64,000 nucleotides of DNA, from contig KI542675.1 in the NCBI GenBank assembly GCA_000496135.1, positions 62,001-126,000 of the forward strand. Reading direction: 5' to 3'. The notes beneath the pieces are model-generated. The model was not told the DNA's origin and did no database searches. It saw only the letters and a program-made list of their open reading frames with translations. Below, piece by piece: positions 8,971-62,072 of this stretch (its first letter is position 1; the number at the start of each line of letters is the position of its first letter). The stretch comes from Thermoplasmatales archaeon E-plasma. Its GTDB lineage: Archaea; Thermoplasmatota; Thermoplasmata; Thermoplasmatales; Thermoplasmataceae. Both the position numbers and the translations under genes were made by a program.

Positions 8971-9561
8971 ATGCTCCCAACCATTGAAGAAATAGGGAAA
9001 ATGAGAAAGAACCTTGGCATAAGCCAGAAAGAGCTTGCCAGAACTTGTGGTGTTAGCCAGTCATACATAGCTAGAATGGAGAAAGGCTCTATCAACCCGA
9101 CTTATGACAAGATCAGGAAAATATATGACTATCTCTCTGTATTCAGCAAAAAAGCGGAATCGTTTGATCTCATTGCAAGCAAGATTATGTCTAAATCGGT
9201 AATAACATGCCATTTAAATGATCCAATAATTTCAGCTCTTAACACAATGCGGGAAAAGGGATATTCACAGCTGCCTGTTGTTAACGGAGAAAACAAAATA
9301 ATGGGAACAATCACTGAGGCAGACGTTAATGAAATACTTCTAAAGGGAACACCCATTGAATCACTGAAAAATCTAAGCGTAAGAAAGGTTATGGGGCCAT
9401 CACTTCCACAGATGCCTATGAATACCCCGGTGAGCGTAATATACCCCATATTGAGATTCTCCAATGCGGTTCTTGTAATGGATGGTGGTGAACTGAAAGG
9501 AATAATATCAAAGGCAGATATACTGAAGGCAGTAGAGTTATATGGTGAACGTCCTTTATGA
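8971..9561 (+). CDS. XRE-type helix-turn-helix protein with paired CBS domains
   Basis: 196-residue transcription regulator: residues ~1-55 form a Cro/C1-type HTH ([36 protein letters not shown]), followed by two CBS motifs (from about 70 and 130; [19 protein letters not shown] and [14 protein letters not shown]). CBS pairs commonly bind adenosyl nucleotides such as AMP, ATP or AdoMet, so DNA binding may respond to energy or AdoMet state (inference). This HTH-CBS arrangement is widespread in archaea. The stop overlaps the start of carS by 20 bases. Confidence 0.85.
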
Positions 9562-10102
9562 GATAATACAGGGGATTATCCTCTTTATCCCTGCATTTAT
9601 ATCCAACCCGGGTGCAGTGATAACAGGTGGAAAAGGAAAGATGGATTTTGGAAAGAACTTCATTGATGGCAGGAGAATCTTTGGCGATGGAAAAACAATA
9701 AGCGGTTTTTTTGGTGGGTCTTTCATAGGTATATTATTTGGTTTGATCATTTTTGAGATAATATCCATGACAAAAGGGCTTTCAGTAAACTATGGCAGTA
9801 ACATCATAGAAGCTTTGGTACCCATTACCGCAATGAGCTTCGGTTCTCTTACGGGGGATCTCATAGGTTCTTTTATAAAGAGAAGGATCGGCATGAAAAG
9901 CGGTTCCAAGGGAAATCTGCTGGATCAATGGCCATTTGTACTTTCTGCCACTCTGTTCATATTCATATTCTCCCGGGGGTTCTTCTTCGCGGCCTACCCT
10001 TATTTAATTCCAATCATTGTTATTCTTGTATTAACGCCTCCTCTCCATAGATCAATAAATATACTGGCTTTTAAATTACACAGGAAGGATGTGCCTTGGT
10101 AG
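9542..10102 (+). CDS. carS: CDP-archaeol synthase
   Basis: Integral membrane CTP:2,3-di-O-geranylgeranylglyceryl phosphate cytidyltransferase of archaeal lipid synthesis. The 186-residue polytopic protein has the family hallmarks: an early [10 protein letters not shown] segment, [18 protein letters not shown] (about 37-54), [20 protein letters not shown], and [11 protein letters not shown] near residue 120. About five hydrophobic segments. The ATG lies within the end of the XRE-CBS gene, and the stop overlaps the pth2 TTG start, so the three genes form one tight operon. It is a later step of the lipid pathway whose early enzyme (HMG-CoA synthase) is encoded at 42.6-43.7 kb. Confidence 0.92.
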
Positions 10103-10455
10103 ACGAATACAAGATGGTTGTAGCCATCAGAAAGGATCTGGATATTGGAAAAGGTAAAATGGCAGCACAGGTAGCTCATGCTGCAGTGAACCTCGCGCTC
10201 TATTCAGAAAAGAAGAACAAAAAGGCCTTCAGGAACTGGGAATCATTTGGTGCAAAGAAAGTTGTAGTAAGAGTTTCTGGTCTTGAAGAATTGTATAGAC
10301 TGAAACAGATGGCTGAAGACAAGGGTCTAGCAACATCACTAATATCTGATGCAGGCCTGACTCAAATTCCCCCTGGAACTGTCACATGCCTTGGCATAGG
10401 TCCTGCAGAATCATCTGTAATAGATGATATCACTGGAAATCTACCATTATGGTAA
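10096..10455 (+). CDS. pth2: peptidyl-tRNA hydrolase, archaeal/eukaryotic type (Pth2)
   Basis: Releases peptides from prematurely dropped peptidyl-tRNA. The 119-residue product has all Pth2 landmarks: [44 protein letters not shown], and the C-terminal [20 protein letters not shown]. Start is TTG, overlapping the carS stop, giving the expected short MVDEYKM N terminus. Last gene of the XRE-CBS/carS/pth2 operon. Confidence 0.95.
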
Positions 10456-10575
10456 AGGGCTGTTTTCACATACTTTTCCGTATCATCGGGAAATTCAAAA
10501 TATCGCTTTTAAATATGAAAAAAGCTGTTTCCACAATAAATAAATTAATATCAGCGGTTTGTCTAAAGAAAATCA

Positions 10576-11046
10576 TTGGTACTGGGTAGAAAGAAAAAGG
10601 AAGAAAAGCCATCTCAAAATCTGCAGCAGCCTATAGCTTATGCAAAGGATTCAAAATCCGAGGATGTTAAGCCGCCAAAAGACAGGAAAGCAAGGAAAGT
10701 TAGCGGCAGACCTGAAATCCAGACAACATCCAAATCAAGGCAGGTGATTAGCCCGGCAGTAGAGCAACCAAAAGAAAAGAGATCTTTACTTCAACTTCTG
10801 GGGATAAAGAAGCCTGAACCACAGATAAAAGATGAAAAGATTACATGGGAAGAATTCGTAAAAATGTTTTTCGAAGGAAGAACTCACACCCTATATGGGC
10901 AAATCTTAAACATTTTTCTGGCAATATTTCTCATAGTCCTTTTCAGGGCATCAAGCAATCCGCTTCTTTTCATAGTACCTTTACTCATACTCATCGTCGC
11001 AGTTGGTTCTGCAGTTGATATAACTGCACATTTGTGGTATCATTAA
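10576..11046 (+). CDS. small membrane protein with charged cytoplasmic N terminus, unknown
   Basis: Not recognised. The first ~95 of 156 residues are hydrophilic and rich in Lys, Pro and Gln with no clear fold; two closely spaced hydrophobic segments follow (about 108-125 and 130-150) with a short C-terminal tail. A conserved-looking KITWEEFVKMFFEGRTHTL segment precedes the membrane part and may be an amphipathic helix. The start is TTG with no clear ribosome site; a TATA-like CTTTTAAATATG lies near 10505. It is the last ordinary gene before the mobile-element-rich stretch. Confidence 0.55.
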   Translation: MVLGRKKKEEKPSQNLQQPIAYAKDSKSEDVKPPKDRKARKVSGRPEIQTTSKSRQVISPAVEQPKEKRSLLQLLGIKKPEPQIKDEKITWEEFVKMFFEGRTHTLYGQILNIFLAIFLIVLFRASSNPLLFIVPLLILIVAVGSAVDITAHLWYH

Positions 11047-11089
11047 GATTTTATACCATCAAAATTGGGGCATTCATAAACTTATTATT

Positions 11090-11542
11090 TTCAAGCAAGC
11101 TTCATTGAAAAGAGTATGCCGTGAGCCATATTCCACGTTATTCCCAGGATCATGGATGAATTCATGATATCCATGTTCCTCATGATTCCCAGTGCCAGGG
11201 ATTCGAAACGCGTTGAGAACCTGGAATGTTTCGCTGACCATGGAACTGTGACCTGTAGTTTTCCAAGTCCAATGCAGTTCACCCGGGTATTCTGGCATGG
11301 ATATAGACCTGGTATATACCACTGTCAAGATCCCGCAATATCCCCTCTTTCACATGGTCAGAGATACAGTATTCCTTACTGCAGACAGGACACTGCCATC
11401 TGCAGTTCTCCTCATGTTCAGGATAGGCGTCAAGTCTGAGGTTGTCTGGAGAGAGTGTGATCCTTGAAACAAACCATGGTCTGGTGATTGAGTACAGATC
11501 TTCAACAAGTTTCCTGTCATCCATGGCAATGAAATGGAACAC
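11090..11542 (-). pseudogene. decayed ISL3-family transposase (N-terminal part)
   Basis: Read leftward from about 11542, the first frame (to ~11285) has an ISL3 zinc-finger-like N terminus (CRWQCPVCSKEYCI) and ends YQVYIHARIP. The similarity then continues in another frame from ~11283 (RVNCIGLGKLQVTVPWSAKH, SRFSTRFESLAL, LGITWNMAHGILFS), typical of the ISL3 transposase region before the DDE core. So there is one frameshift near 11284 and the rest of the transposase, including all catalytic acids, is missing. A dead fragment; no terminal inverted repeats could be assigned. Confidence 0.7.
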
Positions 11543-11601
11543 CCATTATTATTCTATCCCTAATATTGTAGGATGAACCATAAATCTTTATTCGGACCCT
11601 A

Positions 11602-11976
11602 GTTACCTTTACCGAATCAGGTCTCACCTCTGGAACCGATTGGTATGTGAACATAACAGAGAGCAACAGAATGGTTTACGATTCCGGTCCAATAACCAAT
11701 TCATCGTACTCTTTCGAACTGCCAAACGGAACGTACAGCTACACAATCGGCAGCATATCCGGTTACAATGTCTCACAGAGATCAGGTTCCATAAGCGTGA
11801 GTGGAAGGAACACTTCGCAATCAGTCACCTTCTCCAAGGTATCGACAACACCTCCTCCAAAGAAATCAACAACTCCAACAACGCCGAACACTGATCTCTA
11901 CATAATCATAAGTGCAGTTGCAGCGGTTGCCGTTATCGGTGCAGTTGTCGCGATAATGATGAGGAAGAGGAAATAA
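11602..11976 (+). pseudogene. C-terminal remnant of a cell-surface protein (thermopsin-like repeat type)
   Basis: An open frame reads VTFTESGLTSGTDWYVNITE from about 11602, then NGTYSYTIGSISGYNVSQRS, a Pro/Thr linker (TTPPPKKSTTPTTP), one hydrophobic C-terminal segment and a basic RKRK end. The TFTESGL.SGT.WYVN repeat is typical of large thermopsin-related and other surface proteins of Thermoplasmata, which end in the same kind of C-terminal anchor. There is no signal peptide or plausible start upstream: the frame meets a stop at 11581, and the only internal start is GTG 11647. It therefore looks like the tail of a gene cut off beside the ISL3 fragment. Confidence 0.6.
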
Positions 11977-12283
11977 CCTCCCTTATAATCTTCTTATTTT
12001 CTTAGAGTGACTCTAATGGTACTTCGCAAACAAATGCTGTTACAGTATTTAATATGAAAATGCCGTAAAAGCTTACTTTTGATGTACTATTCCGTTTTCC
12101 TGTGCGTGCCAATATACGCTATATCCCATGTGAAAAAAACGGCTCATTGTTTCGAAATAAAACAATGGAAAACCATAAAAACTTCCAAAGGTGGATGTTA
12201 ACATGGTTAACGAAAATCATAATCTCTTTCATTGCACTTCGATGACGAAGACATTGAATGAACACACGGGAACATTCTGAGAG
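11977..12283. other. intergenic stretch, no supported gene
   Basis: About 300 bases between the surface-protein remnant and a leftward membrane-protein gene. It holds only a 25-codon frame at 12204-12281 preceded by AGGTGGAT, inside a GTTAACATGGTTAAC inverted repeat. That is too short to support as a gene, and I see no RNA gene. Confidence 0.5.
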
Positions 12284-12763
12284 CTAGTAAGCATTTCCTT
12301 TTCCGGCTGTCTGTGGAGCTGGTTGATAAACATAGATGAGTAACAGGACAGCAAACAACATGGAAAGAATGAAGCCAGTTGACATTAGATACGAGTTTAT
12401 GTTGTTTTCACCGTCGAAAAGGAAGAATAACCCGTCTATGCCGGCAAGCAGAACGGATAGAAATAGGCCTATGGAACTGAGTAAAATCCTCAAACTACCA
12501 GTACGAATGGAAAGAAACAAGATGCCCAGAGATATGAGTCCTATAAGTATTCCAAGGAACATATGTGCCATTACTATGGGGAGAGACATAACTGGTATGG
12601 ATATGAAAAGATTTATATACATTCCAAGAAGGAACTGTATAAAAAGGAAAACAAAGAGAATTAAGAGCATGGCTTGCAATCCATTGCTCATCATTTTTCT
12701 CGGGAACATAATGAAGACAATTTCTAACAACATATTAATTTTCTGCTTTTGAGACATTGTCAA
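12284..12763 (-). CDS. four-helix integral membrane protein, unknown
   Basis: Not recognised. The 159-residue product is almost entirely hydrophobic after a short N terminus, with about four membrane segments (roughly 25-50, 55-80, 85-110, 125-148) and a C-terminal tail ending GKGNAY. The third and fourth segments are joined by a short acidic loop (DGENNINSY). It resembles small DoxX- or cytochrome-like four-helix proteins in shape only; no haem ligand pattern is convincing. It stands alone within the accessory stretch. Confidence 0.6.
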   Translation of the reverse strand: MTMSQKQKINMLLEIVFIMFPRKMMSNGLQAMLLILFVFLFIQFLLGMYINLFISIPVMSLPIVMAHMFLGILIGLISLGILFLSIRTGSLRILLSSIGLFLSVLLAGIDGLFFLFDGENNINSYLMSTGFILSMLFAVLLLIYVYQPAPQTAGKGNAY

Positions 12764-13102
12764 AAAATAGTTTATTTTTTATGATTCATGACGCCAAACC
12801 GAAAACATGAAATATCATGGAACATTCCATTATATGCGACTACGGAAAGCGCCATACACTGAGTTCAGGAGAGTTTTCAACATCACTCAATCCTCCTCAC
12901 AATAATCTCTCATTTATCCTCAAAAAATTCAATATAATGGGCTCCTGTTCCATTCTACTTATCCTGGTTTCATTTGAAAGTGTAATTCTGAACTATAGGT
13001 TTCCTGGGTTCCAGTTTTGTGATAGTTTCTGGTTAAAGTTCATGTAAAGAATATGTGTTGCAATCAAGGTTATTATAGTGAACTTACATTCGTAGGACAT
13101 GA
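12764..13102. other. intergenic stretch with a TATA box for the transglutaminase-like gene
   Basis: No supported gene. A 76-codon frame at 12817-13047 shows no domain and atypical composition. The useful signal is TTATTATA at 13070-13077, about 26 bases before GTG 13103, which fits leaderless transcription of the next gene. Confidence 0.45.
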
Positions 13103-13870
13103 GTGTGTTTGTCCCTTAACTTTTCGGAAAGTCCAGATCCATCAGTTCCAGAGTTCAATTTCTGTGCATACAATTCCGAATATCTCAAACAGCTGTCAGA
13201 TAGGTCGGGAAATGATCTGAAATTTATTGATATGAGTAACGACTTCGAAAAATCAAAATATCTCTGTGCATGGGCGCATTCACAATGGCAGCACAATGGA
13301 TACAACACCCCTTTCAGGGAAGATCCTGTATCAATTCTTTCTGAAGCAAAGGAAGGTAAGAGATTCAGGTGTGTTGAGTACAGCATCATTCTTCATGCTA
13401 TTCTGTGCACTGTTGGGATAAAGGGAAGAGTTCTCTATCTCCGTACTGAAGATGTGGAGAGCAGAAAGATAGGCGCAGGTCATGTAGTTGTCGAAGCATT
13501 TACAGAAATGCAAAAAAAATGGATTATGTTCGATCCACAGAACAATGCATATGCTGAAGCTGAGGGAATGCCACTGAATGCTCTTGAATTGGGAATGGCG
13601 CTGGAAAATGCACCGGAATCTGTTAGTTTTCCAGGCAAAGGAAGATATTTCAGGAATAAATATATACAATTCATTCGGCCGTACCTGTATTATTTTCATA
13701 CCGATATTAAGATGGCCTATCCCCAAAACTACCCCAGAACTCAGGTGGCACTGATGCCCATCGGTTCTAAAGTACCGGAAAAATTCCAGGGAATCCCTCT
13801 TGATGAGGTACTTATCCCGACTAATTCATATTCCTCATTCTATCCAGGGCAGGATAAATTCCACCTGTAG
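13103..13870 (+). CDS. transglutaminase-like cysteine protease superfamily protein
   Basis: The 255-residue soluble protein has the transglutaminase-core catalytic triad in order: Cys in RFRCVEYSIILHAIL (about residue 92), His in GAGHVVVEAF (about 130) and Asp in WIMFDPQNNAY (about 148). Such domains act as peptidases, amidases or deglycosylases in prokaryotes; the substrate is unknown. It lacks a signal peptide, so it is probably cytoplasmic. Start GTG 13103 is supported by a TATA box 26 bases upstream; the nearby ATG 13099 is in another frame and closes quickly. An orphan gene between two mobile-element remnants. Confidence 0.75.
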   Translation: MCLSLNFSESPDPSVPEFNFCAYNSEYLKQLSDRSGNDLKFIDMSNDFEKSKYLCAWAHSQWQHNGYNTPFREDPVSILSEAKEGKRFRCVEYSIILHAILCTVGIKGRVLYLRTEDVESRKIGAGHVVVEAFTEMQKKWIMFDPQNNAYAEAEGMPLNALELGMALENAPESVSFPGKGRYFRNKYIQFIRPYLYYFHTDIKMAYPQNYPRTQVALMPIGSKVPEKFQGIPLDEVLIPTNSYSSFYPGQDKFHL

Positions 13871-14010
13871 GTGGAATATTGAAAAATAACATTAATCTTC
13901 AAGTACATTGCATGGCAATTCAAATAACCCATAAGTGACGAAAATCCAAAAGGCTGAAGAATGATTGATCAGTAGGGATCTTATTAAAGTTTTAAGGGAG
14001 GACTAAATAT

Positions 14011-14235
14011 TTAAGCGGCAAAGTGAAAGGAACTAAAATTCCAACGGGATACTCCCTTTCGTTTGGCCTCTCTGAACATGTATTGTAGTCCTTCTTTCTT
14101 GGCCATATTGTTCCTGTAGAATTCCTTCCTGAATGCTTCCCTGAATTCCACAGTGTATCTCATGAATACCCGACCTTTTTCCTCAAAATTACTGTTATTC
14201 GAGCTGTTCTTCCTAAATTTTCTCAACGCTCTCAT
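14011..14235 (-). CDS. small basic protein, unknown
   Basis: Not recognised. 74 residues (or 50 from the internal ATG: MRYTVEFREAFRKEF...), strongly basic and aromatic, with probable helices in the centre. It lies 42 bases downstream of the P-loop ATPase gene on the same strand, with a TTATAA just upstream, so it could be the last gene of that cassette. The composition would suit a nucleic-acid-binding protein, but there is no direct evidence. Confidence 0.35.
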   Translation of the reverse strand: MRALRKFRKNSSNNSNFEEKGRVFMRYTVEFREAFRKEFYRNNMAKKEGLQYMFREAKRKGVSRWNFSSFHFAA

Positions 14236-14277
14236 ACGATCTTATAATCTGTTCTAATTTCTTAAGGGTTTTTGACT

Positions 14278-15804
14278 TCACTCCCATGTTTCCTCACTCT
14301 CCTTTGGGGCAGAAATGCGGTAGCACCACGAAGCTTCGCTGGAGATTTTCTTGGTTTTTGCCCTGCCTTCATTTTCCACCCTCACGCCATCGTCGGAACT
14401 TTTGACATTATTCAGAAAATCAGTTGCATTCCTGTAAGGAAGCCGGAGGCTCTGCCTTGCAATCAGCGTTTTGAAAGCCGGGCCGGTGAACCAGGTATAA
14501 TCTCTGCTCCCTATCCACTCAACCAGAAATTCACCATCAATGGGGCTGCGGTATTTCACCGACTTTATGTTTTGGTCTGTCTGTGAATTGTAATATTCCT
14601 CCGAATTCCTCTGTATCCGCTCCCATTCCCCCAAGAACGCGTGCGCCACTTCCAGAGCGTTGCTATCCTCATCAGTGTCAGCATCTTCCTCAAACTGGGG
14701 CCACTCTGGAATACCGAACCACTGGGATAACATGTTGAGTTTGCGGGTGACATAATTGATCCAGTCAGCAGGCGTCTGGAACTGCTCCGCAGCCCTCGCA
14801 ATGTCTCTGATATTCTGGCCCTCGAACATTACTCGGAACAGCTCTATCATGAATCCTTCAGGTAGACCATCAATGAGTGTGTTCCACTCTGGGAGGTTTT
14901 TTCGCCGCCTATTCTGCTCGGTGAATCTCAGAATGATTATTCTCATTGAAGCGGCCAGATCATCATCAACTCTGATCGAACTGTTGACTGTTCCAATGAA
15001 TGAGCGCCTGCCCCGGTATTCTTGAACTTTCTGGTCTGATTTGCCCCGGTCGCCAAAATGTCCAATTTGAACGTATGCTTTTAAATCATCCCTATGTTGT
15101 TGGAGCCAATCACTGGGTAAATCGTCAAACAACGCAGGAATGCTCGTCTCTCCAAGGTGCTTTATTAAGGTGAATGTCGTTCGGACTTTCTGGTATGGGT
15201 AATAATATGCATCTTTCGCCATAGCATACCCTTTGCCAATGAAGAAATCTCCCAGTGGTGTCTTGCCTCCTTGAGTCTTCCCCGCCATCATAATCTGTGG
15301 TGTCTGCACTCTGCGGTTCACATCAGCGTTTCTTTTTAGTTCATCGTGCAATGGTGCCATCAGCGCCCACCCAAGCACCGTTCTATATGCAAGCGGGTGA
15401 GTAGCCCTCTCGTGGAACCATCTCAGCTTTATGACAATATCGCCAACGTCACCAACATGAGGATAGTCAACGTGAATGATTCCGTCATTGTCAACATAAA
15501 TCGGACTCAACCGGTAATTCACTGCCTTTCCGTCGGCAACGGCCTGATCAGCCCAGGCGTTCACTATCTCTTTTAATTTCTGCAACAAAGGGTTCGTGAG
15601 CGACAATTCGTGCCTTAAAAGTTGATAAAAATCAGAGAGAGGCAGAGGGTTATACCTAACACCATTCAACGTAAGTCCACTGCCTATCGTCTCTCCGTCG
15701 ATAAGATAAATAGGCCCAATTGAACCGCTGAACCTCGCCCCATCGACTCTTTTGCCTCCAATTTTCCCTTCGCTATCAACATAGTTATGAATCCACTGAA
15801 CCAA
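14278..15804 (-). CDS. P-loop ATPase/helicase-like protein of a plasmid- or virus-type element
   Basis: The 508-residue product has a Walker A motif GKTQGGKT (about 175-182), a Walker B-like ALFDDLP (Asp 227/228), a polar sensor in RRSFIGTVNSSIRV (Asn about 274) and a candidate arginine finger in AASMRIIILRF (Arg about 288). This layout resembles superfamily 3/DUF927-like replicative helicases of mobile elements (inference). No primase motif is obvious in the N-terminal ~165 residues. The TTG start is uncertain: the same frame runs 20 codons further upstream to a TAA that ends the preceding small gene. Base composition is visibly richer in G and C than neighbouring housekeeping genes, supporting foreign origin. 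Confidence 0.7.
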   Translation of the reverse strand: MVQWIHNYVDSEGKIGGKRVDGARFSGSIGPIYLIDGETIGSGLTLNGVRYNPLPLSDFYQLLRHELSLTNPLLQKLKEIVNAWADQAVADGKAVNYRLSPIYVDNDGIIHVDYPHVGDVGDIVIKLRWFHERATHPLAYRTVLGWALMAPLHDELKRNADVNRRVQTPQIMMAGKTQGGKTPLGDFFIGKGYAMAKDAYYYPYQKVRTTFTLIKHLGETSIPALFDDLPSDWLQQHRDDLKAYVQIGHFGDRGKSDQKVQEYRGRRSFIGTVNSSIRVDDDLAASMRIIILRFTEQNRRRKNLPEWNTLIDGLPEGFMIELFRVMFEGQNIRDIARAAEQFQTPADWINYVTRKLNMLSQWFGIPEWPQFEEDADTDEDSNALEVAHAFLGEWERIQRNSEEYYNSQTDQNIKSVKYRSPIDGEFLVEWIGSRDYTWFTGPAFKTLIARQSLRLPYRNATDFLNNVKSSDDGVRVENEGRAKTKKISSEASWCYRISAPKESEETWE

Positions 15805-15864
15805 CCCTTCTTGTCCATTCCGTATGTATCCCTTAAGGCCATCCGTGGCGGAGATCGTGATATT

Positions 15865-16059
15865 TTATTCAGGTAGCGGGGAGCTACGGGCAACTCTAAT
15901 AAGTTCGTCTTCGGCTACGTTGCTGTTCTCCAGCGCTGATCGGATACGGGCAGGGATTACGCCTTCCTGAATGAGCGTGAAATCGTCGCTGGACAGTGGG
16001 ATTTCTGTGGTTCCGTTGGAGAGCATGAATTGGCTCTCTCGAATCGTTAGGGTGATCAT
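15865..16059 (-). CDS. 64-residue protein, or N-terminal part of the P-loop ATPase
   Basis: Starts at ATG 16059, which overlaps the stop of the Cys-rich gene upstream (ATGA), and ends in TAA at 15865. It reads MITLTIRESQFML..., a short beta-strand-like start, then an acidic helical part ending VARSSPLPE. It is in the same frame as the P-loop ATPase gene and the code between them (NITISATDGLKGYIRNGQEG) looks protein-like. So it may be a separate small protein or the first 64 residues of a ~593-residue ATPase broken by one stop codon. Confidence 0.55.
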   Translation of the reverse strand: MITLTIRESQFMLSNGTTEIPLSSDDFTLIQEGVIPARIRSALENSNVAEDELIRVARSSPLPE

Positions 16060-16232
16060 TCGTCCCACCACCCACATACATCAGAGTCACGGCAAAGGGC
16101 CAGAGGAAGATTTAGTTCACAACGAGTTCCCAAGAAGTGAATACAGCTGAAACACTGATCAAATGAAACGTCCGCAAGTTTTAAGAACGTGCCCAAAATT
16201 GAATTCTTAGAGGTGGGGACCTCTCTTTTCAT
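16056..16232 (-). CDS. 58-residue Cys-rich mini-protein (possible zinc finger)
   Basis: Starts at ATG 16232, 8 bases after a strong AGGAGA ribosome site, and ends TGA at 16056, overlapping the next ATG by four bases. The protein holds CFSCIHFLGTRC (Cys 27, 30, 38), Cys 47 in LALCRDSD and Cys 53 in CGWWDE at the end. Such spacing would suit a small zinc-binding module, common in archaeal virus and plasmid proteins (inference). The gene is too short for routine gene calling; support comes from the ribosome site and the ATGA overlap. Confidence 0.5.
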   Translation of the reverse strand: MKREVPTSKNSILGTFLKLADVSFDQCFSCIHFLGTRCELNLPLALCRDSDVCGWWDE

Positions 16233-16243
16233 TTTTCTATCTC

Positions 16244-16324
16244 CTACGTATTTTCGAGCTCCTCATGGTGCATGTCCCTACCCTTTAGCTCTCTCCAAAG
16301 GTCAAAGACTTTAGCCCACGACAT
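16244..16324 (-). CDS. putative 26-residue ORF in the replicon cassette
   Basis: Begins at ATG 16324 within the end of the RHH gene (14-base overlap) with a GGGGG run 8 bases upstream, and ends in TAG at 16244, part of the next gene's ribosome site. The product MSWAKVFDLW RELKGRDMHH EELENT is amphipathic and acidic at the end. It may be a tiny protein or only a translational link between its neighbours. Confidence 0.3.
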   Translation of the reverse strand: MSWAKVFDLWRELKGRDMHHEELENT

Positions 16325-16469
16325 CGCCGCAACCCCCTTTCTTAACTTCAAATGTAGCTACGGCCAGGCGCACGAACGCAGATTTACTCAAATGCAGGGC
16401 CGCATCTTTCCGACTGAGCAACTGCAAAAATTCGGTATCAGATCGAATTTGTAATGACTTCGTATTCAT
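16311..16469 (-). CDS. ribbon-helix-helix-like DNA-binding protein
   Basis: A 52-residue protein from ATG 16469: residues 3-9 (TKSLQIR) form a likely beta strand, then two helices with a LHLSKSAFVRLAV turn, the usual CopG/RHH layout in which an S-x-S-x-F-V-R turn precedes helix B. Such proteins are typical copy-number or transcription regulators of archaeal plasmids and viruses. It is the first gene of the leftward cassette that continues with the 26-, 58- and 64-residue frames and the P-loop ATPase. Confidence 0.5.
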   Translation of the reverse strand: MNTKSLQIRSDTEFLQLLSRKDAALHLSKSAFVRLAVATFEVKKGGCGDVVG

Positions 16470-16537
16470 AATGTAGTGTTCACAATTTTGGTTTATTAGT
16501 ATTTGTCTACATATATATTATTACATAGATAACATAA

Positions 16538-16759
16538 CCATTACCCTCTGAACTCCCGGATAAGATCAAACAGTTTACAAGTCAAAAGTTGCTTACAAAG
16601 GCACAGGCCACGGAAATCTTACCTTTACAAACCGGTTTGCATTTCCACCCCTGGCTGACCACCGATGATGTTCGCATGAAATGCGTCGAGGATATGGTCA
16701 GGGGGACTGACTTCCATAAAAATCAAAGAATATTAACCGCAGATTCAGTAGGGCATTGA
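16538..16759 (+). other. open frame without a start between the cassette and tRNA-Phe (possible gene fragment)
   Basis: 73 uninterrupted codons (16538 to TGA 16757) reading LPDKIKQFTSQKLLTKAQ, then LHFHPWLTTDDVRMKCVEDM, with protein-like composition but no early start codon. It could be the C-terminal remnant of a gene disrupted by the integration next to tRNA-Phe. I do not recognise a family. The bases on its left (16470-16537) are very A/T-rich and probably hold the leftward cassette's promoter. Confidence 0.3.
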
Positions 16760-16772
16760 ACTTTTGGGGGTA

Positions 16773-16845
16773 TGCCGTGAGCCGGGATTGAACCAGCGAC
16801 CTCCAGATCTTCAGTCTGGCGCTCTCCCAACTGAGCTATCACGGC
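16773..16845 (-). tRNA. tRNA-Phe (GAA)
   Basis: Folds as a complete cloverleaf: acceptor GCCGTGA/TCACGGC with discriminator A, D-arm with AGCTCAGTTGGGAGAGC, anticodon stem CCAGA/TCTGG with loop CTGAAGA (anticodon GAA), and T-arm with GGTTCAATCC. No CCA is encoded and no intron is present. A TATA-like ATAAAATATAG lies just upstream on the same strand. The 3' end borders the presumed integrated element. Confidence 0.95.
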
Positions 16846-16969
16846 CTAAAGCCCTATATTTTATCTTTATTAATAACTTTGCAGAGCTTTCAAAGAGGAT
16901 TTTTATCTGCATATTAACCTTTGCAGAACTGTAAAGAATAACAGAGAAAAGATTATTATACAATGGAAA

Positions 16970-18424
16970 ATGAGAACAAAAGTGAAAGCAAAACTTTTGA
17001 TGGTTACAGGTACTGCTTCAGGTTCAGGGAAATCCACTCTGACTATGGCTCTATGCAATCTCCTTAGAAAATCCGGTTATACGGTCACTCCCTTCAAAGC
17101 AATAAATATTTCACTTAACTCAGTCGTTACACCGGACGGTTCAGAGATATCGAGGGCACAGTGGCTTCAGGCTATTGCTTGTGGAGTGGAGCCAAACTAT
17201 GAGATAAATCCATATTTAATCAAATACGAGGGAAATGGAAGAGCCCAGCTCATTGAGAACGGTAAATCATTAGGTTCGATGCCACATAAGGATCTATCGC
17301 ATTACCTGGAAATAAACGCCAGGAATAACATAAGATCAGCAATAAAACATTTAAGTGAGAACAATCAGGTAGTTGTAATCGAAGGAGCAGGTTCACCAGC
17401 TGAAATAAACAGAAGTGGTGAGGATTACGCAAACACATTCATTCTCAGGGAATATTCTCCTGTTACCATTCTCATAACAGATATAGAACAGGGAGGTGCA
17501 TTTGCATCCTTATATGGCACTTATCTTCTTATGGAAAACAGGGGTGTGCTGAAATGGTTTGTTATAAACAGAATGCGTGGAAATCCAGACGTACTGAATA
17601 CAGGAATAGAGAAGCTTGCTGAACTCACAGGGGTTCCAACGCTTGGTGTCATACCCAGAATTGATGAGATAAGGCTTCCTGGAGAAGATGGAAATGATTA
17701 TTCCAACAGTGGAATCTTTGGGACAGATGTTTGCATAATCAAATATCCCATGATGGAAAATCTGAGCGAAGTGGACCCATTAAAAGCATTTGGCATTGGA
17801 TATAACTATGTCAACAAAAATAATAAAAACCTTCTAAAATTGGCAAAGATTATTATCCTCCCAGGCTCCAAGGATGTATTCTCGGACTTAAAGTATCTGA
17901 AAGATAGCGGAATCGATGATATTTTAAGGGAAAGAGCAGTTTCTGGAGTAAAAATCCTTGGCATATGCGGAGGTTACCAGATGCTCTCCAGGAAGATTGA
18001 AAGCGATTTAAGAAACGAGGAACATGGGAAAGTATCCGGGCTTGGCCTTTTAAACGTTGAATTCTCTTATTTTCCCGTGAAAACTTTAAAGCGGACAAAT
18101 TTTACTATTTATGAATCAAATGATGATCCAAAATCCCAGGGCTATGAAATACACTTTGGAAACGTAATTAAAAACTCTGAAAGAGCACTTTTTTATACAG
18201 ATGAAGGTCCGGAAGGAAGCATAAGCGAATCAGGAAATGTTCTCGGAACAAATGTTCATGGTTGCCTTGAAAGTACTGCCTTTATTGAATATCTTCTGAA
18301 TATTCACATTGATAAGCCATATGGAGAAAGACTGACTGAGGAAATAGATCGAATTTCAGAGATCATAGGCCATTCCATAGATTTAAAATTACTCACAGGC
18401 TATCTGTCCCCCGTGAAAAAATAA
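16970..18424 (+). CDS. cobQ: cobyric acid synthase
   Basis: Glutamine-dependent amidation of adenosylcobyrinic acid diamide in B12 synthesis or salvage. The 484 residues comprise an N-terminal BioD-like ATPase domain (Walker A GTASGSGKSTLTMAL, residues ~14-28; PFKAINISLNS; VVIEGAGSPAEIN) and a C-terminal class I glutaminase domain with the nucleophile in GICGGYQML, then GYEIHFGNV and the His in NVHGCLE. Length is normal. ATG at 16970; another ATG at 16963 is out of frame. No other cobalamin gene is in the window. Confidence 0.95.
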   Translation: MRTKVKAKLLMVTGTASGSGKSTLTMALCNLLRKSGYTVTPFKAINISLNSVVTPDGSEISRAQWLQAIACGVEPNYEINPYLIKYEGNGRAQLIENGKSLGSMPHKDLSHYLEINARNNIRSAIKHLSENNQVVVIEGAGSPAEINRSGEDYANTFILREYSPVTILITDIEQGGAFASLYGTYLLMENRGVLKWFVINRMRGNPDVLNTGIEKLAELTGVPTLGVIPRIDEIRLPGEDGNDYSNSGIFGTDVCIIKYPMMENLSEVDPLKAFGIGYNYVNKNNKNLLKLAKIIILPGSKDVFSDLKYLKDSGIDDILRERAVSGVKILGICGGYQMLSRKIESDLRNEEHGKVSGLGLLNVEFSYFPVKTLKRTNFTIYESNDDPKSQGYEIHFGNVIKNSERALFYTDEGPEGSISESGNVLGTNVHGCLESTAFIEYLLNIHIDKPYGERLTEEIDRISEIIGHSIDLKLLTGYLSPVKK

Positions 18425-18495
18425 GAAAAGTGTCTTATTGCCACAGAACTAACTAATTAACAGAAAAAGACTATATTATTAGTTGTAGTTCAAGT

Positions 18496-18864
18496 ATGAT
18501 GATGCCCGGCAAAATGAATTCAAGAGAAATGAGAAGAATGATGTCTCAGATGGGTATAAAATCCACTGAAATGACCGATGTAAAAAGAATTGTCATGGAG
18601 GGTGAGGCAAAAAATTATATTATTGACAACCCGGAAGTGGTTATGATCGAAGCACAGGGACAGAAAAGCCTCCAGATTGTAGGGAATATCAGGGAGGTTT
18701 CAAAGGCACAAACCGTTAAAAAAGCAGCTACAGAACCCTCCTTTCCAAAGGAAGATATAGACCTGGTAATGAGCCAGGCAAACGTTACCAGAGAGAGAGC
18801 TGTGGAAGCCCTTAAAAAAGCTTCCGGAGAGCCTGCCCAGGCTATCATTGATCTGAGCCAATGA
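18496..18864 (+). CDS. nac: nascent polypeptide-associated complex protein (archaeal NAC)
   Basis: Ribosome-associated chaperone that binds emerging nascent chains as a homodimer. 122 residues: basic Met-rich N terminus (NSREMRRMMSQMGIK), the NAC beta-barrel (KRIVMEGEAKNYIIDNPEV, QKSLQIVG) and a C-terminal UBA domain (VMSQANVTRERAVEALKKA ...). The stop overlaps the start of the CCA-adding enzyme gene (ATGA), so the two are co-translated. Confidence 0.93.
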   Translation: MMMPGKMNSREMRRMMSQMGIKSTEMTDVKRIVMEGEAKNYIIDNPEVVMIEAQGQKSLQIVGNIREVSKAQTVKKAATEPSFPKEDIDLVMSQANVTRERAVEALKKASGEPAQAIIDLSQ

Positions 18865-20162
18865 TCGATTTAAAAAAAGTTATTGCAGAGTATTCACCAG
18901 ACACTGCTGAAATAGAGTCTGTCAGGAAACTATCAGATGATCTTATCATTAAAATAAGCGATTATTGCAGGATTAACAACATCAACGCGGATCCACTTCT
19001 TGTTGGATCGTCATCCAGAGGTACATCACTAAGGGGTGCAGATGTAGATATATTCATCCGATTCAAAAGAGGCTATGGAATCAGGGAAATGGAGAAACTG
19101 GGTCTGGAGATAGGTCATTCCATTTTAAAAAAAGGAGTGGAAAAATATGCAGAGCATCCCTATGTATCATCCAATGAATTCGGGAGAAAGGTGGATGTAG
19201 TTCCATGCTTCATGATTGATAACGCAAATGAACGCCTCACAGCGGTGGATCGAACCCCTTTGCACAGCGAATATCTTAAGACCCACCTCACAGTCCAGCA
19301 GAGGGATGAGGTAAAACTTCTGAAGTTGTTCATGAGAAAGCAGGGGATTTATGGTTCTGAGCTGAAGACAAATGGCTTTTCAGGCTATGTTACAGAACTT
19401 TTGATCGTGAATTACGGTTCCTTCCTGTCTGCGATAACTCATTTTTCAACGCTTAAGGGGAAATTGATTGTTGGGGATTATGAGGCAACGAAAAAGTTCA
19501 CTTCACCAGTGATAATAATCGATCCAACGGACCCGCAGAGAAATGCCGGGGCGGCAGTTTCGTTGACTGCTCTATCAATCCTGAAACTCTGCGGTAAAAT
19601 ATTTCTGAGGGAACCGTCTGAATCCTATTTCGGTATGGAACCTGACAAAAAGCCTTCCCCGAATGTTGACAGAGGGACAGTATTTTACATAATAAGGATA
19701 AGGCGCCCAGAAATTGTAGACGATATTATCTTTCCACAGGTTCAGAAGATGATCTCAGCAATAGTTCGTGCCTCAAAGGAATACGGTTTCAACATAATCA
19801 GTTCAGAATATTCAGTGGAAGATGAGATTGAGGTTTTGCTGGAACTGGAAACAGATATTCTACCATCAGTAAAGTTGCACAGTGGACCGCCGGTAGAAAG
19901 TGATAACATTATTCCGTTTTTGGAAAAACATAATGGAAAGGATGTTCTCAGGGGCCCGTATGTAATGGATGGAAGAATTTACGTAGAGTTGAAAAACAGC
20001 ATGAACGTTTACGATGATGCTCTTCATAAAATACTTGAGAATGCAGATCTGGGCAAGCACATAAACAATATGAAAGAGGAGTTTAAAATTCAGAGATATG
20101 AAGGAAAATTGCCGGATCTGAAAGTATCAACTAATTTTTTATCAAAAAGGAATCCAAATTAG
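18861..20162 (+). CDS. cca: CCA-adding enzyme (class I tRNA nucleotidyltransferase)
   Basis: Adds CCA to tRNA 3' ends without a template. The 433-residue protein shows the class I nucleotidyltransferase core VGSSSRGTSLRGADVDIFI (about 49-67; GS...DxD) and the third acidic residue in GRKVDVVPCF, followed by the archaeal central domain (LLKLFMRKQGIYGSELKTNG, FSGYVTELL) and the C-terminal tail domain. It is needed here because both tRNA genes in the window lack an encoded CCA. Follows NAC with a four-base overlap. Confidence 0.96.
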   Translation: MIDLKKVIAEYSPDTAEIESVRKLSDDLIIKISDYCRINNINADPLLVGSSSRGTSLRGADVDIFIRFKRGYGIREMEKLGLEIGHSILKKGVEKYAEHPYVSSNEFGRKVDVVPCFMIDNANERLTAVDRTPLHSEYLKTHLTVQQRDEVKLLKLFMRKQGIYGSELKTNGFSGYVTELLIVNYGSFLSAITHFSTLKGKLIVGDYEATKKFTSPVIIIDPTDPQRNAGAAVSLTALSILKLCGKIFLREPSESYFGMEPDKKPSPNVDRGTVFYIIRIRRPEIVDDIIFPQVQKMISAIVRASKEYGFNIISSEYSVEDEIEVLLELETDILPSVKLHSGPPVESDNIIPFLEKHNGKDVLRGPYVMDGRIYVELKNSMNVYDDALHKILENADLGKHINNMKEEFKIQRYEGKLPDLKVSTNFLSKRNPN

Positions 20163-61658: not shown

Positions 61659-62072
61659 TCAATGTATCTGTTCAATCTTCTTGCCATGTGGGCAGCTTTC
61701 TGGTTTACCCAATTTGTCAAAAACCCTGTCCACTGAGTTATGATCTATGAGATAGTCAATATTTTCTGAAAGTATACACGCCTTATCCGGATCCATTCCA
61801 GAGCTGGCCATTAGTGTTTCCATTACCCTGTGATTTTCCACGAGTTCTAAATACGCTTTTTTACCCTTATCTGTGAAAATTATCATTCCTTTTTCATCTT
61901 TCAGGCAGCCCTTCCGGGACAGTCTCCTTACAAGATTAAGGGCCGTTGGGGGCTTTACTTTTAAAAGCAATGATAAATCAACCAACCTCAGAGGAAAGGC
62001 ATTGTTTCCACTATCACCAACAGCTATTACGGTATCTCTCTCCTTTTTGGTAAGTTCCATCTTGTTGATCAT
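61659..62072 (-). CDS. DtxR/MntR-type metal-dependent transcription regulator
   Basis: 137 residues: an N-terminal winged helix (LRLVDLSLLLKVKPPTALNL, VRRLSRKGCLKDEKGMIIFT) and the helical metal-binding/dimerisation domain (ELVENHRVMETLM, ACILSENIDYLIDHNSVDRV) ending PESCPHGKKI, the CPHG motif typical of DtxR proteins. It probably senses iron or manganese. No SH3-like third domain. ATG 62072 or 62060. A dyad at 62078-62094 lies just upstream of the start. No metal transporter is in the window. Confidence 0.88.
   Translation of the reverse strand: MINKMELTKKERDTVIAVGDSGNNAFPLRLVDLSLLLKVKPPTALNLVRRLSRKGCLKDEKGMIIFTDKGKKAYLELVENHRVMETLMASSGMDPDKACILSENIDYLIDHNSVDRVFDKLGKPESCPHGKKIEQIH

Follow-up and report, generated by a model that had tools for sequence, protein, structure and literature searches.

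In the Thermoplasmatales archaeon E-plasma (assembly GCA_000496135.1, contig KI542675.1), a 64,000-nucleotide stretch from position 62,001 to 126,000 (hereafter the window, to whose numbering all coordinates refer unless a locus is named) carries an insertion at 11116–16783, adjoining the gene for tRNA-Phe. This insertion is very probably the trapped, integrase-less remnant of an integrative plasmid-like element. Of the marks of a tRNA-targeted element, it shows the tRNA 3' end repeated at its two borders and an empty site in relatives, and an integrase of its own is absent; because that integrase has left no trace, we speak of a remnant rather than of a complete element. The initial annotation of the window had already proposed the remnant of an integrated replicon at tRNA-Phe, and the empty site, the foreign codon use and an ATPase whose relatives are joined or adjacent to a Prim-Pol all bear this out.

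Limits of the insertion and the empty site

The target of integration, the tRNA-Phe (GAA) gene at 16773–16845 on the minus strand, was left whole. An exact 14-nt direct repeat, GTATGCCGTGAGCC, is found at 11114–11127 and at 16770–16783, the latter copy being the tRNA-Phe 3' end. Within it, the 12-nt attL core at 16772–16783 is matched by a second core copy at 11116–11127, the recombined attR, where the chromosome meets an ISL3-type transposase gene. This 12-mer occurs only twice in the 64 kb. When the tRNA-Phe locus was compared among relatives, a check that the initial annotation had suggested, two congeners, G072 and G071, proved to have the site uninterrupted. From the CarS-like gene (9542–10102) to tRNA-Phe the distance is 6671 bp here, against 1025 bp in G072 and 1021 bp in G071, and the G072 locus (L088) can be aligned to 9501–11127 (87%) and to 16772–18986 (85%), the two halves joining exactly at the core ATGCCGTGAGCC. 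From the repeat and this empty-site alignment it follows that 5,656 bp were inserted between the repeat copies, double the interval first marked. The initial annotation had let the element end at 14011; in fact the insertion continues to 11116/11127, where a copy of the tRNA 3' end marks that side.

Within the genus, tRNA-Phe is a hot spot for insertions: in G070, a third congener, different extra sequence of about 1.4 kb with a transporter-like open reading frame (ORF) adjoins the same tRNA, and G071 has further tRNA-Phe copies. There are three of these extra copies, all at contig ends (L097, L098 and L099, i.e., C65, C18 and C111), two of them with common upstream sequence, which suggests several elements or tandem insertions in that genome.

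Relatives with the same attachment arm

The element-side attL arm (16719–16771) is common to tRNA-Phe elements of G071 (83% over 65 nt) and of G102, from another genus (94% over 31 nt). On the tRNA side, the arm common to the window, G071 and G102 reads AACTTTTG(G/A)G(G/A)GTATGCCGTGAGCC, and this sharing makes it most likely that a G071/G102-type integrase inserted the window element. The G071 element (L119, C111) measures about 18.4 kb. It encodes a Prim-Pol and a D5-type SF3 helicase of a different family, as well as a SIR2-STAND protein and a type II methyltransferase; its 428-aa tyrosine integrase (L119 17221–18507) is encoded some 60 bp away from attR. The integrase gene of G102 (L124 10196–11481, C51) is frame-broken, with a product 72% identical to that of G071, and has an attR-like 12-mer with one mismatch next to it.

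Possible defence cargo was seen in both relatives. In G071, L119 6815–12260 holds the SIR2 and STAND protein (1086 aa, with ThsA-like matches), the methyltransferase and their neighbours, and in G102 a restriction-like 693-aa protein with PADLOC matches to Orf5, HEC-06 and type IV restriction lies in the tRNA-Phe element (L124 8061–11544). A complete 9.4-kb relative of the window element (L011 4757–14256, in G080:C44) lies between two tRNA-Arg(TCT) copies that form a 102-bp repeat of 99% identity, and a 451-aa frame at its far end resembles an integrase, with no match to a Pfam family. The Prim-Pol genes of G071 (region L119 1492–4549) and G080 (region L011 6715–9247) are 69% identical, and their partner helicases are unrelated, the one of the D5/DUF5906 type and the other of the window's family. 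The pairing of one type of Prim-Pol with two unrelated helicases shows the helicase to be an exchangeable module.

The missing integrase and a probable deletion joint

The absence of a visible integrase, already remarked upon in the initial annotation, was confirmed by tblastn, which found no trace of one in the window element, and neither end holds a split SSV-type or other remnant. The inner arm of attR, TGAGTTAATACCGG, which in G071 and G102 takes the form TGAGT(T/A)AAT(A/G)CCGG, is missing from the far end of the element. What stands there is the 5' third of an ISL3-type transposase gene (11116–11585, minus strand), cut off at the core. Positions 11116–11580 match an ISL3-type transposase gene in G104 at 96% identity (466 nt) and the gene of an intact 406-aa frame in G089 at 72%, and the similarity passes through the 12-nt core and stops at 11116, where the chromosome starts. 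The corresponding codons of the insertion sequence (IS), which spell MAHGI, read ATGCCATGTGCC on the plus strand of the window and are identical to the tRNA core in 10 of 12 positions; by our own arithmetic, the chance of a match of at least 10 of 12 at a random joint is about 4 in 100,000.

The simplest account of this joint is a recombination between attR and the IS that removed the attR arm, the integrase and two thirds of the IS. A deletion in place and an aberrant excision prior to integration would give the identical joint. Direct integration via the IS sequence was considered and rejected, as the tRNA-side arm is that of a G071/G102-type attP and not the remaining part of the IS. A bolder version would have the integrase itself use the att-like ISL3 codons as a pseudo-attachment site and so excise its own gene, with the remaining cassette still functioning as a satellite replicon for which full-length relatives with the same arm supply Prim-Pol and integrase. 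We regard this as improbable; if true, such integrase-driven self-trapping, together with life as a satellite, would add a separate path from mobile element to permanent genomic island.

The cassette and its foreign composition

The right half of the insertion is a tight leftward operon next to the tRNA-Phe 3' end, with all frames on the minus strand, and the overlapping genes of 52, 26, 58, 64, 508 and 74 aa listed in the initial annotation are all present. A TATA-like stretch picked out by eye (16510–16519, minus strand) lies 41–50 nt upstream of the ATG of the first gene. This gene (16311–16469) encodes the 52-aa RHH-like protein, a putative copy-number or transcription regulator; the frame stands as first described, with a weak, sub-threshold likeness to RHH proteins (Pfam RHH_1, E = 0.09). 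It is followed by a 26-aa ORF (16244–16324, ATG at 16324), a Cys-rich 58-aa ORF without a family match (16056–16232) and a 64-aa ORF (15865–16059), the ATG of which overlaps the TGA stop of the preceding ORF; this last ORF is in the frame of the ATPase and is terminated by a TAA at 15867–15865. Next comes the AAA+/SF3-like helicase (14278–15864), which has 508 aa when read from TTG 15804 (14278–15804) and homology that reaches 15864, and then, after a gap, a basic 74-aa ORF without a family match (14011–14235). Another 64-aa frame, overlapping at 15896–16090, was discarded by eye for its Arg/His/Asn-rich translation. Searches of the small proteins and the ATPase against Pfam, PHROGs, NCBIfam and PADLOC gave no match above cut-off.

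The composition and codon usage of the cassette are foreign and lie well outside the host range. Its G+C content, rightly described at the outset as higher than that of its neighbours, is 45.6% (13922–16769), against 40.1% in the remaining window. In the ATPase gene, G+C at third codon positions is 0.52 (0.30–0.42 in 30 long host ORFs of the window), and the codon-adaptation index relative to the host is 0.57 (0.64–0.74 in those ORFs). Nor is the cassette found at the same place and with normal codon use in all close relatives, or the ATPase a member of a chromosomal housekeeping family, the two observations that the initial annotation had said would count against its reading. These results also bear on the idea that the cassette is a domesticated one, retained for the host's own use: the long open frame and the invariant motif residues have been kept despite the lost integrase, as such use would predict, yet the codon use is foreign, the frame contains a stop codon, and the cassette is absent from G072, G071 and 109 of the 117 genomes of the order, so that domestication seems very improbable.

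An orphan helicase family and its Prim-Pol partners

Matches to the ATPase occur in 8 of the 117 genomes, the window's own included. The four close relatives (36–46% identity) are proteins of G070, G039, G078 and G080, the last being 44% identical. The relatives in G070 and G039 form the C-terminal part of a protein of 856 or 816 aa that starts with a Prim-Pol (PF09250, E 5e-41 and 6e-22, respectively); those in G078 and G080 are encoded by a 548-aa gene immediately following a Prim-Pol gene of 297–315 aa with a DnaG-type zinc ribbon. PF09250 is thus present with all four closest ATPase relatives and has no trace in the window. An alignment of 13 divergent relatives has invariant or near-invariant columns at the GK of Walker A, in an acidic Walker B region, at a sensor Asn and at an Arg that follows it; the motif roles (Walker A, Walker B, sensor Asn and Arg finger) were assigned by eye. 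The anatomy is that of an AAA+/SF3-type replicative helicase, its helicase activity being inferred from motifs and context. In G055, two Prim-Pol-helicase proteins of 1065–1067 aa (L113 and L115) are distant relatives of the window ATPase.

The initial annotation could not name a family for the ATPase, and no family was matched in Pfam, PHROG, NCBIfam or PDB sequences either; the helicase family is an orphan, absent from the public libraries searched. Profile searches of PDB sequences gave nothing significant; the widest profile touches replication factor C (E = 0.28) at Walker A and sensor 1. With the full-length structural model, the best Foldseek match in the PDB was the Cch protein of SCCmec (5dgk; E 1.4e-3, probability 0.80, TM 0.23), a weak match of a model with a poor core, and a core-only model of the ATPase matched nothing. 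Since the ATPase core is poorly modelled, the suggested structural link to Cch is a lead only. DUF927 (PF06048) was not matched in the ATPase by Pfam and was not found in 300 genomes of the class.

The initial annotation spoke of a small plasmid or virus, of which the plasmid half is the better guess. A provirus remnant, in which the cassette would be a virus replication module and the structural genes would have been deleted along with the integrase, draws on the facts that SF3/AAA+ helicases and Prim-Pol occur in viruses too and that the indicated far-end deletion could have taken such genes. However, the element ORFs scanned gave no match to capsid, portal or packaging families, and the ORF lists of the full-length relatives at tRNA-Phe show no structural gene either. 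Relatives of the ATPase were likewise not found by IMG/VR pattern scans, whether with the ATPase alone or as an alignment, or by tblastn against plasmid and phage records. Virus ancestry is therefore unsupported, and we think it highly unlikely. The fused G070 protein did match bacterial plasmid records, chiefly in its Prim-Pol part. A circular-closure check of the 5.8-kb G070 and 3.5-kb G039 contigs found no overlap between contig ends and hence gives no proof of a free plasmid form.

The in-frame stop codon

The 64-aa gene and the ATPase had been listed as separate genes, and both frames do exist; they are, however, a single frame split by the TAA at 15867–15865. Similarity to the relatives (ITISATDGLKGYIRNGQEG versus IFIAISQADKVYGTIRNGKEG) resumes directly past the TAA, 20 codons upstream of the TTG start, and between the TAA and 15804 there is no ATG, GTG or TTG. 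The TAA may be a nonsense mutation; alternatively, a rare codon may serve as the start, or a shortened protein may be translated from the TTG. The TAA is compatible with decay and could be an assembly error.

The stop codon also enters into the question of whether the insertion is a living satellite, an element that has lost its integrase and Prim-Pol and depends on full-length relatives with the shared arm for copying and movement in trans. Its operon and ATPase motifs are largely intact, its attL arm is shared, and full-length, integrase-bearing elements are present in the genus. On the other hand, the TAA interrupts the helicase frame, an IS has replaced the inner arm of attR, and the only such integrase in the host genome is 44% identical and is present too in the insert-free G072, all of which makes a living satellite improbable.

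The left half of the insert

In contrast to the cassette, 11585–14000 is host-like in composition. It holds a C-terminal fragment of a surface-type protein (11647–11976, plus strand), with repeat homologues at G000:C3:363 kb, a 159-aa hydrophobic membrane protein without a family match (12284–12763, minus strand), a fragment (12753–12887) with 75% identity to the upstream end of a G073 gene for a putative transposase with a weak InsA zinc ribbon, and a mobile block (13056–13921, plus strand) with a transglutaminase-like gene (13103–13870). Between this genome and G105 the 867-bp block is 84% identical in DNA, as against 54% identity for their CarS-like proteins. The block, with further loci at L091 1863–2729 and L095 5179–5822, is common to other genera at 80–84% DNA identity, adjoins a transposase gene in G105 and has a decayed copy elsewhere in its own genome. 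A 46-nt segment at 12180–12225 is 91% identical to C3:581238–581283 of the same genome and is possibly an IS end. The left half is cargo acquired by transfer, perhaps with the help of an IS.

The host-like G+C and codon use of this half, at a site that is a hot spot in the genus, would also fit two independent events, in which the cassette (13922–16783) and the left half (11116–13921) arrived separately as tandem small insertions. Against this, no third core copy lies between the halves (there being only two in the 64 kb), and the relatives show a single clean empty site, so we consider two arrivals unlikely.

A proposed history

For the trapped remnant that we favor, the following course of events may be put forward. 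When the element was alive, the RHH protein would have controlled copy number, and the helicase, together with a Prim-Pol, would have replicated the circular form. An integrase of the G071/G102 type presumably recombined attP with the last 12–14 bp of tRNA-Phe, so that the tRNA stayed whole. Afterwards, an ISL3 element probably inserted within the integrated element, and attR then recombined with the att-like IS codons (MAHGI, 10 of 12 nt), an exchange that would have deleted the integrase together with the attR arm and what was left of the IS. The element would now be unable to excise itself and appears to be decaying, as the TAA in the helicase frame and the IS scraps suggest.

Several points weigh against this account. 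The attR–IS deletion is a reconstruction, and an intermediate genome was not found; the 10 of 12 match between IS and tRNA could have been used by end-joining or homeologous recombination instead of an integrase. The helicase activity of the window ATPase rests on motifs and context, the AlphaFold prediction of the whole ATPase is poor in its core and does not model the ATPase core, and the Prim-Pol partner in the ancestor of the element is assumed from relatives. The source data are draft assemblies; nevertheless, the insertion is internal to a 911-kb contig.

Comparison with known systems

Comparable elements are those of G071:C111, G102:C51 and G080:C44, which share with the window element a tRNA target and, in G071 and G080, the pairing of Prim-Pol and helicase. 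They differ in having an integrase and cargo, in the D5-type helicase that takes the place of this one in G071, and in the tRNA-Arg target in G080. Plasmids of the pRN1 type carry the RHH protein ORF56 and the Prim-Pol-helicase ORF904. The window element resembles these in having an RHH-like gene followed by a replicative helicase and in its size of about 5.5 kb, but it has no Prim-Pol domain, and its helicase part has no family match. The full-length series of RHH, 85-aa ORF and fused Prim-Pol-helicase is seen in G070:C15; the RHH matches are below cut-off.

The recombinase of SCC elements is a serine recombinase. The Cch protein of SCCmec is an MCM-like helicase (5dgk; PMC7581432), and the likeness to it consists in an AAA+ helicase of an integrated element with a separate primase, whereas the fold match is weak and DUF927 is not matched. 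A Cch homologue has been recorded in an archaeal integrated element (PMC6563490), and cryptic elements that have short att sites and encode replication proteins of the Prim-Pol, MCM or Cch type have been described as integrated in archaea (PMC6563490, PMC5862659, PMC4158269). Those of Thaumarchaeota are likewise small, target the 3' end of a tRNA or other gene, have a short att repeat, possess such replication genes and encode mostly small proteins of unknown function, but they belong to a different phylum and are defined by an integrase gene, which is absent here (PMC6563490). Within the host order, the plasmids pTA1 and pPO1 encode Orc1/Cdc6 proteins, and pPO1 also carries restriction-modification genes and a recombinase (PMC3177234); they are of a similar size class to the window element, but their replication is of the Orc1/Cdc6 kind, with neither Prim-Pol nor this helicase (PMC3177234).

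The locus and its relatives point to an apparently undescribed group of Thermoplasmatales tRNA-targeting elements that use Prim-Pol with exchangeable helicases, some of them with defence genes. The helicase family, for which neither Pfam nor NCBIfam has a model, is open to biochemical testing, and the exact joint illustrates how an IS can strip the integrase from an element and fix that element in the chromosome. Set beside the systems above, the element belongs to a type already known and is notable for a helicase family without a model and for a deletion joint that can be read with unusual clarity.

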